This document shows, one piece after another, positions 45,868-58,476 of a DNA stretch of 58,476 nt. Position 1 is the stretch's first letter; each line of letters begins with the position of its first letter. The position numbers were made by a program, and so were the translations under genes. Below the pieces are notes generated by a model. It did not search any database and was not told the DNA's origin. It saw only the letters and a list, made by a program, of their open reading frames with translations. The DNA is taken from positions 1-58,476 of the forward strand of contig JACRFB010000041.1 in assembly GCA_016218045.1 (NCBI GenBank), read 5' to 3'. This stretch comes from Ignavibacteriota bacterium. Lineage in GTDB: Bacteria; Bacteroidota; Ignavibacteria; SZUA-365.

Positions 45868-46001
45868 GATGTAGCAAAGTGGCAAAGTGGAAAAGTGGCA
45901 AAGTGGAAAGTGGAAAGTACGAACGTTGCCACCTTGCTACTTTGCTACTTTGCTACATTGTTACACGCAACTTGTAACGTGGATACGTGTAACGTGTAAC
46001 G
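45868..46001. repeat. imperfect inverted minisatellite
   Basis: Purine-rich GTGGCAAA/GTGGAAA words (45868-45918) are followed by the complementary GCTACTTT words (45928-45960). The two arms (GTAGCAAAGTGG-like and CCTTGCTACTTTGC-like) could pair in an imperfect hairpin. A short TTACACGC/ACGTGTAAC tract (45961-46001) ends exactly at the stop of the PrsW-like gene. No gene is seen in 45753-46001. Confidence 0.8.
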
Positions 46002-50181: not shown

Positions 50182-50341
50182 GGTCATTCCGTGATGGTGT
50201 TTGAACAGGAAACGACTTCGAGCAATACTACGCAAATTTGCAGCACCGAGCCACCGGCTGCATTTTGATCCTCACCATAACCCGTTGCAAGTTGTAACTC
50301 ATTCTTCAGCGTCGCCTTCTACCTAAACTCTGCCCACTTCG

Positions 50342-50419
50342 CTTTTCTCTTTTCCCTTTTCTCTTTTCCCTTTTCTCTTTTCCCTTTTCCCTTTTCTCTT
50401 TTCCCTTTTCTCTTTTCCC
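50342..50419. repeat. polypyrimidine minisatellite
   Basis: CTTTTCTCTTTTCCC-type units (about 6-7 bp subrepeats of TTTTCY and TTTTCCC) fill this tract and end 10 bp before the GIY-YIG ATG at 50430. It makes the region upstream of that gene almost wholly pyrimidine. No promoter was recognised in it. Gap 50182-50429 is otherwise gene-free. Confidence 0.88.
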
Positions 50420-50846: not shown

Positions 50847-52226
50847 CTATTGCAGTATGTGAAGGGTGCCCGCACTCTGCTTCGTGCCGGAGTGTGCGCG
50901 GTAATGATACACACCGTTCGGCATGAGTGAACTGTCCCACATCGCTCTCGACGCGGCGTCACTGCGGATGTGTGCGACGTGTACACCGAGTGTGTTGAAG
51001 ATGTCGATCTCGAACGCGGTCTCGCGCGACACCGGAACGTCGAAGCGGACGATGCCGCGCGCAGGATTCGGGTATGCGTGAATGGTGAAGTCCGTTTCTC
51101 CTACCGGCTGCCCGTTTATTCCCGCCACTATATCGCGCGGGAGGCGCAGGGCCGGATCTCCGGAGAGGACCATACGCATTGCTTCCCAGGCAGCGCTGCG
51201 CTCACGGATCGCCGCGAGCAGCGCCGAGCCGACCGCGACACCGTCGTTGATCATGGCCCTGTGCGCGTATGTGAGAATGGACGAAATTATTCCTGCGTAG
51301 TTCAGGCCCGACGAACCGATCGTCGCAACCGCGCCGCCCTTCGGTCGCAGAAGCAGCGTGCCGAATAATTCCTCCTGCCCTGTGAGCGCCTTCTGTGAAC
51401 ACGCCACAGTGCTGACGACGAACGGTGACGCGGGCAGGGCAACCGAGTCCAGGTTGTCATACGTCAGAAGTCGCTCGTGTGACCAGCCCCAGCGCGCCCC
51501 GTGTCCATAATACAAGAGGACGCGCGTGCCCGAGCGAAGCGTATTCCACATGGTTTCGCGGGACGCGTACTGTGCCGAGCCCGCGAGCGCGGATAACATC
51601 ACGCGCCGCGTGGCCGAGGGGAAATTGGACGAGGCGTCGTTCTCCGCAATAGTCTCGAAGAGGGCCCCGTCCCGGGAGTCGATCAATTGCAGAAAGTCGA
51701 GCGGCACATCGCCGCGCCGCATCGAGTCGGTAAAATACCGCGTCTTGGCGAGACACAGTTCCGCGGCCGCGCTGTCGGATACGGGGAAGCGTCCGATGGC
51801 GGCGTCGGGCTGTGTGTCGTTCTGATTTTGATTGACCACGAAAGGCCAGTCGTGATAGGCGGTGTCCGGCACCTGCATATCGGTTGAAACATGCTGCCAC
51901 GTGGGGATGATGTTGCTATCGCCGAGGAGCAGAACGAATGCGGGATACGGGGGCGTCCACGTCGTCATCGCGTAGCTCAGAAAATCACGCAGCGACTGCC
52001 GCGACTCCGCGGCCGGAAATTCGCGCGCGATATCGGCGATGTCGACGGGCATCGACACAAGGCCTTTCGCGGCACGCCACTGTGCATGCAATGCGGCTGG
52101 ACCGGCGCAGACGGAGGAATGGATGATCAGGTAGTCCGCGTGATTCGCGGAGGAATGAAGCTGCGCGTGTACGGTACAGGACAGGACGAGGACAAGCAGA
52201 ACACCCACTCCGCGGAACAGCGCCAT
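50847..52226 (-). CDS. gingipain-fold C25 family protein with type IX sorting domain
   Basis: 459 residues: signal peptide (LFRGVGVLLVLVLSCTVHAQ), then a C25-like domain with HADYLIIHSSVCAGPAALHAQW, PAFVLLLGDSNI, GRFPVSD, RVLLYYGHGARWGW (likely catalytic histidine) and STVACSQ (likely catalytic cysteine). The C-terminal part (FTIHAYPNPARGIVRFDV ... GVYHYRAHSGTKQSAGTLHILQ) is a type IX secretion/attachment signal. ATG 52226 starts the signal peptide. Gingipain-type enzymes are cysteine proteases; this one is short, without the pro-domain, so activity needs testing. Probably exported to the surface. Confidence 0.85.
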   Translation of the reverse strand: MALFRGVGVLLVLVLSCTVHAQLHSSANHADYLIIHSSVCAGPAALHAQWRAAKGLVSMPVDIADIAREFPAAESRQSLRDFLSYAMTTWTPPYPAFVLLLGDSNIIPTWQHVSTDMQVPDTAYHDWPFVVNQNQNDTQPDAAIGRFPVSDSAAAELCLAKTRYFTDSMRRGDVPLDFLQLIDSRDGALFETIAENDASSNFPSATRRVMLSALAGSAQYASRETMWNTLRSGTRVLLYYGHGARWGWSHERLLTYDNLDSVALPASPFVVSTVACSQKALTGQEELFGTLLLRPKGGAVATIGSSGLNYAGIISSILTYAHRAMINDGVAVGSALLAAIRERSAAWEAMRMVLSGDPALRLPRDIVAGINGQPVGETDFTIHAYPNPARGIVRFDVPVSRETAFEIDIFNTLGVHVAHIRSDAASRAMWDSSLMPNGVYHYRAHSGTKQSAGTLHILQ

Positions 52227-54010: not shown

Positions 54011-54138
54011 AGGTGGAAAGTGAAAGGTGGAAAGTGGAAAGTGGAAAGTGGAAAGTGGAAAGTGAAAAGTGGAAAGTGGAAAGTGAAAAGTGGAAAGTGG
54101 AAAGTGAAAAGTGGAAGGTGGAAAGTGAAAGGTGGAAT
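54011..54138. repeat. GTGGAAA heptanucleotide minisatellite
   Basis: About 18 units of 7 bp (GTGGAAA, with variants GTGAAAA, GTGAAAG, GTGGAAG) run from 54011 to 54138 and abut the permease start codon at 54008 with only 2 bp between. In the minus direction one frame reads LSTFHFS repeats. The next 60 bp (54139-54207) contain CTATATCCTA-type repeats and no gene. Confidence 0.92.
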
Positions 54139-55527: not shown

Positions 55528-55665
55528 GGATACACAAACGATCAGGAATGAACAGCAAGGGGAAGTCGCGCCGGCTCCGCTAAGCGCAGTCCCATAATGC
55601 AGAATCCTGCGATGAAAATCCACCGCTGCGTGTCCTTGCCTGCGCCAGCATTTTGCTCAACCACC

Positions 55666-55917
55666 TAGTATCCTCACAGCCGCGTGAGGATACGGGAGAC
55701 AGTCCTCGAGCCAACTCCTGCCTCCCGACTTCGCTTTGCTGTATCCGCACACCCGCGTGAGGATACAGGAGGAAGGAGACAGGAGACATGCACTGAGTCG
55801 ACTCCTGTCTCCCCGTCCCACTCAGTTTCATCCTCGCATTCGCGTGAGGATACAGGAGGAAGGAGACAGGAGACACGCACTGATTCCACTCCTGTCTCCT
55901 GTATCCCGTCTCCTCAC
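55666..55917. repeat. 87-bp interspersed repeat, three units (first copy)
   Basis: Three units start near 55668, 55741 and 55828 (73 and 87 bp apart). Each holds a hairpin TATCC(T/G)CAC...GTGAGGATA and then a second pair AGGAGACAGGAG / CTCCTGTCTCC. The first unit lacks about 14 bp. Length being a multiple of three explains long open frames through the tract; these frames are not believed to be genes. Gap 55528-56108 contains nothing else but the pyrimidine tract and terminator below. Confidence 0.9.
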
Positions 55918-55918
55918 T

Positions 55919-56050
55919 CGCACCCAGAAGATCGGCCTACCCATCTACCATCTACCAACTACCCATCTACTCCTGTCTCCTGCCTCCTGTCTCCTCACAC
56001 GAACAGAGCAGATCGATCTACCATCTACCCATCTACCAACTACCAACCTA
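55919..56050. repeat. CTACC-rich polypyrimidine tract
   Basis: CTACCATCTACC, CTCCTGTCTCC and related words continue from the 87-bp array to the terminator. Most of this tract is repeated nearly unchanged at 58235-58313. The AACAGAGCAGATCGATC segment is shared too. No coding potential. Confidence 0.85.
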
Positions 56051-56055
56051 CTAAG

Positions 56056-56086
56056 CCAAAAAAAAGCCCCGCACTTGGCGGGGCCT
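56056..56086 (-). terminator. Rho-independent terminator of the type IX-secreted protein gene
   Basis: Minus-strand GCCCCGC and GCGGGGC form a 7-bp GC stem around CAAGT, followed by eight or more U residues. It lies 25-50 bp after the stop at 56109. The same structure is repeated at 58319-58346 after the paralogous gene. Confidence 0.93.
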
Positions 56087-56108
56087 TGTAAACACAAAGA
56101 ATGAAAAA

Positions 56109-57668
56109 CTACTTCGCGAGCGCCATCTTGATCGTCTTCGTAAACGTCAAGCCCGACTCCACACCCGTCATCGTGATCGTCGCGACATAGTTGCCGCTCG
56201 ACAGATTCGTGGCATCGAAGTTCGCCGTATGCACCCCCGCGTCAACGCGGCCGTCAACAAGCGTCGCGATTGTGCGTCCGTACATGTCGCTCACCGTGAG
56301 TGTCACCTGCGAGGCTTCCGGCGCGGTGTAACGGATCGACGTCGAAGGATTAAACGGATTCGGATAGTTCTGATCCATGTCGAAGGTCTCGCGCGAGAAT
56401 GCGCCCGGCTTCGGTGTTCCGTGCGTCTTCATCCAGTTCAGCTTGATCGCGATGTAATCGAAGTTGTTCACCAGGCCGTTGCCATCGCTGTCCATGTAAC
56501 ACCCCATGGCGGTTTGCCAGGGCACGGACGGCTGGCCGACCCACATGTAATACGTGAACGGATTCGTCGGCGCGTCGGCGCGGTAGCGGGCCGGACCGGA
56601 CAGCCACATCGGAGCCAGATTCGCATCGAAGATATATTTGTTCAATGCCTTGCGATCGCCGAAGTTCGCGATGCCGTCGTTGTTCACGTCGCCGGGATAC
56701 ACAAGGCACGGCGTCTTGCCGGCCGCGATCAGCATCAGCGAGTTTGACGGGAGTGGCTTCGTGAGCGGCGTGTTGCACGTGCTCAGCGATGTCACCTGAT
56801 AGTCAACTCGGTAGTACCCCTCGGGGAGCGTCGACGGAAGCGTGATCGGCTGCGAGCCATAGAGAGGTATGCCGGCCTGCTTGTTGACGGTGAACGACGT
56901 GGTCCACTCGGGCACACTCGTCGACCCGCCGATGCGGAAGAACTTCAGATCGAAGGTGGTGCTGGTTGCACCGGCCGGGAACAGCACCGAGTACTTGAAG
57001 TACATGGTCGCGCCCGGATTTGTGTACGCCAGCGGATTACCGGCCTGATCGGTGGCATCGATGGTGATAGCATCGGCCGGAATGTTGCAGCCCTCGGCAT
57101 ACCGCACCGCGCCGAACCACTTCCAACCCGAGACGAAATTCCATGCGGGCACGCCGCCGGCGGTCCCGCCATACACACCATACCCATCAACAACGATTTT
57201 CAGACGTGAATCCTGCCACGTCGATGGCACTGCCGCGCCGGGCTGACCCCAGACGACGAGGTTGTCATTAAAAAGGACAAACGACGCTTTTTCTCCCGGC
57301 GCAAGCACCAGGTTGATGTCGACGGGAATTTCTTCCAGGCCCACAAACACGGGACAGTTCGCGGCGAGGTACCCTGTTCCCGCATAGGTCCAACCCGTGT
57401 TCACCGCCTGCTGGGGACCGAGACGGTACCACACCTCGACATTCCCCGCGCCGAGGTAACAGATCGACGGACTGATACGGCAGATCTTGACATAGTCGAG
57501 GGCCTCGACTTCGAAGGAGATTCCTTCATACCCTGATGCACTGCCTGTGTACTGGTACGCTGTCAGAAGGTACGGGCACTGAGCATGTGCCGTGCCCGTG
57601 TTCGTGAAGAACGACCCGAGCAACAACGCGCCAAAAAGCATCACCACAAACGCGAAACGATGGGACAT
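56109..57668 (-). CDS. large secreted protein with dockerin-like motif and type IX sorting domain
   Basis: 519 residues from the ATG at 57668, which has a GAGGGG site upstream: signal peptide (FAFVVMLFGALLLGSFFTNTGTAHAQ), a long beta-rich region, a calcium-binding dockerin-type pair (YPGDVNNDGIANFGDRKALN and MDSDGNGLVNNFDYIAI), then the type IX signal (MDQNYPNPFNPSTSIRYTAPEASQ...VESGLTFTKTIKMALAK). No enzymatic motif was recognised. The dockerin-like repeats may bind a partner or calcium. Its C-terminal codons and terminator recur exactly downstream of the 87-bp array, so the gene at the window edge is a paralogue. Preceded upstream by a candidate promoter. Confidence 0.85.
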   Translation of the reverse strand: MSHRFAFVVMLFGALLLGSFFTNTGTAHAQCPYLLTAYQYTGSASGYEGISFEVEALDYVKICRISPSICYLGAGNVEVWYRLGPQQAVNTGWTYAGTGYLAANCPVFVGLEEIPVDINLVLAPGEKASFVLFNDNLVVWGQPGAAVPSTWQDSRLKIVVDGYGVYGGTAGGVPAWNFVSGWKWFGAVRYAEGCNIPADAITIDATDQAGNPLAYTNPGATMYFKYSVLFPAGATSTTFDLKFFRIGGSTSVPEWTTSFTVNKQAGIPLYGSQPITLPSTLPEGYYRVDYQVTSLSTCNTPLTKPLPSNSLMLIAAGKTPCLVYPGDVNNDGIANFGDRKALNKYIFDANLAPMWLSGPARYRADAPTNPFTYYMWVGQPSVPWQTAMGCYMDSDGNGLVNNFDYIAIKLNWMKTHGTPKPGAFSRETFDMDQNYPNPFNPSTSIRYTAPEASQVTLTVSDMYGRTIATLVDGRVDAGVHTANFDATNLSSGNYVATITMTGVESGLTFTKTIKMALAK

Positions 57669-57754
57669 AAAACACCCCTCTTTCTGATGGTTGAATTGGC
57701 TCACACCGGTGTGGTCATGAAACCTTGATTGTTCAACAGAAGTGAACTCCAACA

Positions 57755-57783
57755 ATGTTAGATCGTTTCTTCCATGATTGCAA
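57755..57783 (-). promoter_or_regulatory. candidate promoter of the type IX-secreted protein gene
   Basis: Minus-strand TTGCAA (57783-57778) and TAACAT (57760-57755) with a 17-bp spacer. Predicted start near 57748, 80 bp before the ATG. Moderate match only. The interval 57669-57907 has no gene. Confidence 0.45.
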
Positions 57784-57907
57784 GGTAAAATCATGTGCCA
57801 ATTTGTCACACTCCTTTCGATTACCACCAATTCACCCACGATTTATCGCGTTTTCCCTCTGTCATTTCGTGCAACACTGCTTAGGCGTGTCTTCCGATTT
57901 CATTGCG

Positions 57908-58256
57908 CTGTATCCTCACATCCGCGTGAGGATACAGGAGGAAGGAGACAGGAGACAGTCCTCGAGCCACCTCCTGTCTCCCGACTTCGCGTTGCTGTAT
58001 CCGCACAGCCGCGTGAGGATACAGGAGCAAGGAGACAGGAGACAGGCCTCGAACCAACTCCTGTCTCCCGACTTCGCTTTACTGTATCCGCACAGCCGCG
58101 TGAGGATACAGGAGGAAGGAGACAGGAGACAGTCCTCGAGCCAACTCCTGTCTCCCGACTTCGCTTTACTGTATCCGCACAGCCGCGTGAGGATACAGGA
58201 TAAAGGAGACAGGAGACAGGCACTGAGTCGACTCCTGTCTCCTGTCTCCTGTCTCC
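57908..58256. repeat. 87-bp interspersed repeat, four units (second copy)
   Basis: Four units start at 57908, 57995, 58082 and 58169, exactly 87 bp apart, with few substitutions. Every unit carries the GTGAGGATA hairpin and the GGAGACAGGAG/CTCCTGTCTCC pair, so up to eight hairpins are possible. It is closely related to the array at 55666-55917. Long frames through it repeat 29 codons and are considered spurious. Confidence 0.93.
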
Positions 58257-58313
58257 TCACACGAACAGAGCAGATCGATCTACCCTCTACCATCTACCAA
58301 CTACCAACCTACT

Positions 58314-58347
58314 AAGCCAAAAAAAAAGCCCCGCACTTGGCGGGGCC
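58314..58347 (-). terminator. Rho-independent terminator (paralogue copy)
   Basis: GCCCCGC (58328-58334) and GCGGGGC (58340-58346) with a U-tract on the minus-strand side (A-run at 58319-58327). It ends the gene at the window edge and duplicates 56056-56086. Confidence 0.92.
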
Positions 58348-58370
58348 CTGTAATCACAAAGAATGAAAAA

Positions 58371-58476
58371 CTACTTCGCGAGCGCCATCTTGATCGTCTT
58401 CGTAAACGTCAAGCCCGACTCCACACCCGTCATCGTGATCGTCGCGACATAGTTGCCGCTCGACAGATTCGTGGCA
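58371..58476 (-). CDS. type IX-secreted protein, C-terminal fragment (gene runs off the window)
   Basis: Only the last 34 codons and the stop are inside the window. The 106 bases are identical to 56109-56214, ending VESGLTFTKTIKMALAK, the C-terminal strand of a type IX sorting domain. So it is a close paralogue of the gene at 56109-57668. The rest is not visible, so the catalytic or structural part is unknown. Identity over this stretch and a shared terminator suggest recent duplication or gene conversion. Confidence 0.9.
   Translation of the reverse strand, partial: ATNLSSGNYVATITMTGVESGLTFTKTIKMALAK

Follow-up and report, generated by a model that had tools for sequence, protein, structure and literature searches.

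The window, by which we mean the whole 58,476-nucleotide stretch analysed here, ends in what is probably a tandem cluster of three paralogous genes for T9SS-exported proteins, and we consider it likely that the identical ends of the first two genes come from base DNA copied between paralogues. Genes of this family are modular, with a variable head set on a C-terminal base of about 328 residues. We propose a scenario in which tandem paralogues would form, copies of the base, and sometimes of the 3' flank, would pass from one paralogue to another by homologous recombination (gene conversion or unequal exchange), and the heads would diverge or be replaced, each protein keeping its own N-terminal head. 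Direct observations on which this scenario builds are the identity itself, the modular architecture of the family, a lower synonymous divergence of the base, and a conflict between heads and bases in a relative.

The identical ends and the break in the assembly

Besides one complete gene for a T9SS cargo protein (gene 1), the window holds the 3' end of a second (gene 2; Table 1), in agreement with a preliminary description of this DNA, which saw only the far end of the second gene, up to 58476. Because the window is the entire contig C41 of a 4.77-Mb genome in 72 contigs, this position is where the assembly stops and not a biological boundary.

Table 1. Features at the end of the window, with positions, strand and basis or remark.
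Feature	Position	Strand	Basis or remark
Gene 1, 519-aa T9SS-cargo protein	56109..57668	-	Open frame; Por_Secre_tail match
Head of gene 1, residues 1-189	57102..57668	-	Precedes the common base
Base of gene 1, residues 190-519: Ig-like, dockerin-like pair, T9SS sorting domain	56109..57101	-	
Dockerin-like region: two calcium-loop-like motifs with insert	56433..56696	-	Below Pfam cut-off; second loop by sequence only
Terminator-like hairpin with T-run, downstream of gene 1	56058..56085	-	Sequence reading; aligned with copy 2
Tract 3' of gene 1, with divergent copies of an 87-bp unit and with heptad words	55632..56055	.	Sequence analysis
122-bp exact identity, copy 1	56093..56214	.	Sequence comparison
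122-bp exact identity, copy 2	58355..58476	.	Sequence comparison; stops at contig end
Gene 2, 3' end (sorting-domain tail)	58371..58476	-	Remainder probably on C29:1-699 and in an unassembled stretch
Terminator-like hairpin with T-run, downstream of gene 2	58319..58347	-	Sequence reading; alignment
Tract 3' of gene 2, with 3.9 copies of the 87-bp unit followed by heptad words	57888..58310	.	

The preliminary description had reported bases 56109-56214 and 58371-58476 as identical, which direct comparison reproduces; the full exact identity is longer, 122 bp, and coding end, terminator and tract together give a local match of 97.2% over 250 bp. The terminators and the AACAGAGCAGATCGATC tracts match as it had claimed, at an offset of 2261-2262, the AACAGAGCAGATCGATC copies lying at 56002 and 58264 (offset 2262). 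Its range of 2262-2265 was close, the value being 2262 at the coding ends and 2261-2262 in the terminator region, where the A-run has 8 bases in one copy and 9 in the other. The paralogue background is given by a third paralogue on contig C29 (gene 3), which has 89.5% identity over the same 105 coding bp; at that level the chance of 122 identical bases would be about 1.3e-6 (0.895^122). A 157-bp query found four matches in the DNA of this genome, namely the two copies, C29 (90% over 105 bases) and C72 (73% over 89). T9SS sorting domains in the genome number at least 150 (150 matches, with 150 of 306 candidates scored), so that the 122-bp identity is not a general trait of sorting domains.

Close DNA matches to gene 1 in a search of the whole genome fall on C41 and C29 only. 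C29 opens, on the same strand, inside a paralogue of gene 1's head class: its bases 1-610 match window positions 56970-57579 at 83.7% over 613 bp, the first 39 being those of gene 1 with divergence thereafter, and this start comprises an intact 5' part with start codon and signal-peptide-like stretch, followed by gene 3 (C29 935-2497, or to 2563 with an earlier start). We hold it likely that the end of C41 and the start of C29 are parts of one gene, about 755 bp of which are missing from the assembly. The two contig ends have no overlap; for the flanking proteins of either contig no counterpart turned up among the relatives' loci examined, and NupC and SulP did not lie close to each other in the relatives having both (12 genomes searched). 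Since synteny in relatives gives no link, the adjacency of C41 and C29 stays one that we infer.

Over 699 aligned coding bases, C29:1-699 is 78.0% identical to gene 1, and 50 of 109 four-fold sites differ. If the start of C29 is gene 2, that gene is a mosaic, 100% identical to gene 1 at its 3' end and 78.0% identical in its 5' part, and the identity does not extend through the whole gene, as the preliminary description would have expected of a simple recent tandem duplication. The boundary of the identity is out of sight because about 755 bp of gene 2 are absent from the assembly; the missing middle would resemble gene 1.

How the contigs end deserves attention here. Comparison of 52 of the 144 contig ends gave six pairs with exactly 141 bp in common, which suggests an assembler with k=141, a pattern that we take to resemble that of MEGAHIT. 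With an identity of only 122 bp, the end of C41 is not a plain 141-bp branch with gene 1. An identity between genes 1 and 2 reaching to 57008, derived from assembly logic, was dropped, the ends sharing 122 (C41) and 39 (C29) bp and not 141; an identical middle of about 900 bp in gene 2 would be expected to break gene 1 as well. In assemblies of this kind, a contig end can be the sign of a recombining gene family.

A common base with variable heads

Gene 1 encodes an N-terminal signal-peptide-like stretch, a head and the C-terminal base. Its Por_Secre_tail match exceeds the cut-offs of Pfam (28.1 bits against 27) and NCBIfam (28.7 against 23), a FlgD_ig match lies under its cut-off, and Dockerin_1 scores 20.5 bits at residues 325-347, below the Pfam cut-off of 22.9. 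The class of its head comprises four full-length relatives with 40-44% overall identity. An AlphaFold2 model of gene 1, built from five sequences, was weak (mean pLDDT 58.1, pTM 0.37) and was not used for function, and a Foldseek search of the PDB with it gave query TM-scores of at most 0.20 among the 50 matches listed.

A profile of 328 positions was grown from residues 190-519 and searched in fetched stretches, which had been picked from the matches of an earlier search. It matched 60 open frames, of which 46 have a complete base, ending at the C-terminus; complete means a profile start at position 3 or before and an end at 326 or beyond, and the other 14 frames were excluded from later counts. 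Among the relatives from the protein search, those with a name are MAGs that carry the label Bacteroidetes bacterium or uncultured Ignavibacteria. When 10 other members were scanned with Pfam, dockerin scored above 22.9 in six (26, 26.9, 25.2, 24, 26.3 and 28.7 bits), and the sorting domain exceeded its cut-off in two, the remaining eight scoring 19.7-26.5. Their heads include a Laminin_G_3 domain in L104 (65.6 bits) and a right-handed beta-helix in C17; 8 of the 10 have no Pfam match ahead of the base at E 0.01.

T9SS sorting domains in other bacteria export the protein and attach it to the surface. By analogy, the base should export the protein by the T9SS and fix it to the cell surface, and this genome has T9SS machinery of its own (SprA_N, 191.9 bits against 27; PorU, 976.7 bits against 420). 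For the heads we presume a function, perhaps including ligand binding. Near the array, at 50847-52226 on the minus strand, lies a gene for a peptidase of the C25 family (gingipain-type; 142 bits) that itself carries a T9SS sorting domain.

Base and head divergence in this genome and its relatives

Between genes 1 and 3, the share of four-fold sites that differ is 0.54 ahead of the base (n=78) and 0.33 within it (n=165; Fisher p 2.0e-3); when the genes are divided at codon 300, a point picked after the profile was seen, p is 9.6e-6. Elsewhere in the genome, C34 and C35 have exactly 141 bp in common (sorting-domain tail, 3' flank and terminator) and then diverge, a length that the assembler may have set. 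At the same region C34 matches C67 at 93.5% over 153 bp, and between the C34 gene tail and C17 the match is 97.2% over 283 bp. In this assembly (G000), C34, C35, C67 and C17 are short contigs ending in base modules of the same family, and another array has probably been collapsed or lost in part.

Across the 46 complete bases, the median nucleotide identity is 79.3% within genomes (204 pairs) and 59.9% between genomes (831 pairs), with several short genes of relatives G001 and G005 grouping by orthologue. Within-genome pairs were filtered for a pre-base part of at least 0.5 amino-acid identity and 60 sites and for a base above 0.75, and in all 115 of the 204 that passed the base is less different at four-fold sites than the rest of the gene, with a nominal p under 0.05 in 107; these pairs are not independent, 83 coming from G004, 30 from G006 and one each from G000 and G005. 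Between genomes the bases differ at a median of 0.56 of four-fold sites (831 pairs), from which it follows that four-fold sites of the base can change.

The relative G004, of the same family, is assembled in one 5.24-Mb contig and carries 15 tandem T9SS-type genes over about 55 kb (C1:2208629-2263717; L146-L149), which allows the conversion process to be measured. Comparisons covered 13 of the 15 genes, the shorter g14 and g15 being left out. Their bases have identities of 0.80-1.00 (median 0.91), the middle part between head and base has block means of 0.60-0.75, and the heads fall below 0.30 in 58 of 78 pairs, between 0.30 and 0.50 in 8, and at 0.50 or above in 12. Long identical runs are common to non-adjacent genes. 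Three long runs of agreeing variable sites (g08/g13, 1006 nt; g03/g05, 795 nt; g10/g11, 340 nt) were each reached in none of 1000 permutations, a test that, with the base conserved overall, overstates short runs and makes these uninformative.

Head and base trees conflict in G004. In AU tests the head data reject all three base-sister pairs (g03+g05, g08+g13 and g10+g11), and the base data reject three of the four head groups tested, g05+g06 being the one not rejected (p 0.136); the head groups had been picked beforehand from the pairwise table, {g02, g12} stood outside the tests, and the head alignment joins unrelated heads, so that its very long branches are only indicative. Past the stop codon, the flank is not common to g03/g05 or g08/g13, whereas in our genome the shared sequence runs on through terminator and tract; g10/g11 share 22 bp, and g05/g06 are 81% identical over 151 bp. 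In g02 (arr_17105) base and rest are nearly equal in divergence, for example 0.60 against 0.61.

Homogenisation is uneven, and the short-gene array of another relative shows little of it. The sole G001 pair with base identity above 0.75 has a p4 of 0.49, and the G006 median (0.42) is about level with 10 similar pairs taken between genomes (0.43). The related MAGs L104, L107 and L110 differ in copy number and heads at one locus, where 5, 2 and 1 head-plus-base genes, respectively, lie beside a gene that we take to be glmS. A presumably FG-GAP-like protein with a sorting-domain-like end also adjoins them in all three, and what we recognise as an OmpA-like gene lies nearby in L104 and L107.

Alternatives, known systems and the repeat tracts

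Let us consider what else might have produced identical ends. If the tract-plus-gene unit had recently been duplicated in tandem and had then diverged, without gene conversion, this would place the genes in tandem on one strand, as they are, and would carry the non-coding terminator and tract along with the coding end. Against it stand the 50 of 109 four-fold differences in the 5' part beside 122 identical bp at the 3' end, an objection that needs C29:1-699 to be gene 2; with an identity to gene 1 of only 78-84% in what is probably the 5' part of gene 2, the whole gene is not a recent duplicate, and we consider this explanation unlikely. A duplication of the unit with later divergence and conversion of parts is possible. 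The assembly itself might also mislead, if the end of C41 had been extended with gene 1 sequence so that part of the 122-bp identity is false; the identity does reach exactly to the contig end, and several contig ends in this assembly have sequence in common with others. Copy 2, however, has tract and terminator differences of its own up to 58354, so a second copy exists, reads would have crossed its junction, and such an artefact appears quite improbable.

Purifying selection, finally, might keep the sorting-domain end alike without any exchange of DNA, as the functional constraint on this domain and the high amino-acid identity of the bases within G004 could be taken to indicate. Yet synonymous sites and the non-coding terminator and tract are identical too, of the other sorting domains, at least 150 in this genome, the DNA search found only those of C29 and C72, and bases differ at 0.56 of four-fold sites between genomes; we give this explanation very little credence. 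What explains G004 best, and probably our genome too, is that the base undergoes gene conversion. The gene conversion or modular swapping of surface proteins raised in the preliminary description has the relatives and the synonymous-site patterns in its favour; that the repeat tract takes part in the exchange would be conjecture.

Tentatively, the arrangement might be one dedicated to diversification, in which tandem arrays keep a common T9SS export-and-anchor base interchangeable by recurrent conversion while the heads turn over. Any head ahead of the common base would then be displayed, as a surface repertoire of this Bacteroidota/Ignavibacteria lineage, and the 3' flank (the terminator, here also the repeat tract) would perhaps be one entry point for exchange. 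By such means a lineage whose T9SS cargo genes number well over a hundred may build up and refresh its displayed heads via one uniform base.

Several known systems bear comparison. Like T9SS type A cargo (TIGR04183/PF18962), gene 1 has a sorting domain over the cut-off in a genome with SprA and PorU, but the common part here, about 328 residues long, is more than the domain of about 70 residues, and the tandem arrays of some genomes have it homogenised at the DNA level. Antigenic variation of the pilE/vlsE type uses one expression site and silent donor cassettes; the 15 tandem genes in G004 and five in L104 have full open frames. Rhs proteins are not known to be related to the family studied here. 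As far as the accessible part of the source goes, Rhs genes with C-terminal displacement (PMC2935791) likewise combine a conserved core with exchangeable ends, the polarity being opposite here, where the heads are N-terminal. Domain rearrangement and gene conversion are discussed for Porphyromonas gingivalis surface proteins, several of them T9SS cargo (PMC5266723, accessible part), and gingipains and HagA resemble the present family as T9SS proteins that vary by recombination and have a conserved C-terminal domain. According to the same part, they have repeated internal adhesin modules, few genes and exchange between strains, whereas here tandem paralogues share a base and differ in their N-terminal heads. 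A search of open-licence PMC literature, judged by titles and abstract openings, gave no description of tandem arrays in this lineage that combine a common base with exchangeable heads; the principle of conversion and rearrangement is known, and arrays of the 328-residue base in this lineage are apparently new within that scope.

The pyrimidine tract noted next to the duplicated ends is an ordinary heptad repeat (CTCCTGT, ATCTACC) together with an 87-bp minisatellite, of which 3.9 copies lie at 57908-58242. A tract query gave 111 matches in this genome, overlapping and on both strands. As to phase variation, the heptad arrays beside genes lie outside the gene frames. Bacteria are known to have over-represented heptameric repeats between their genes (PMC4692102, accessible part); those of Xanthomonas, Nostoc and Calothrix described there are intergenic arrays of 7-bp period, as here, and differ from ours in that the present window has other words, several word families and 8-bp arrays. 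Arrays of 7- or 8-bp period occur in C41 at 1-249, 2377-2439, 45874-45964, 50338-50419, 54013-54137, 55941-56052 and 58232-58306, and their words differ (TCCCGCTG, TTCTACC, GCAAAGTG, TTCCCTT, GTGGAAA, CTCCTGT and ATCTACC).
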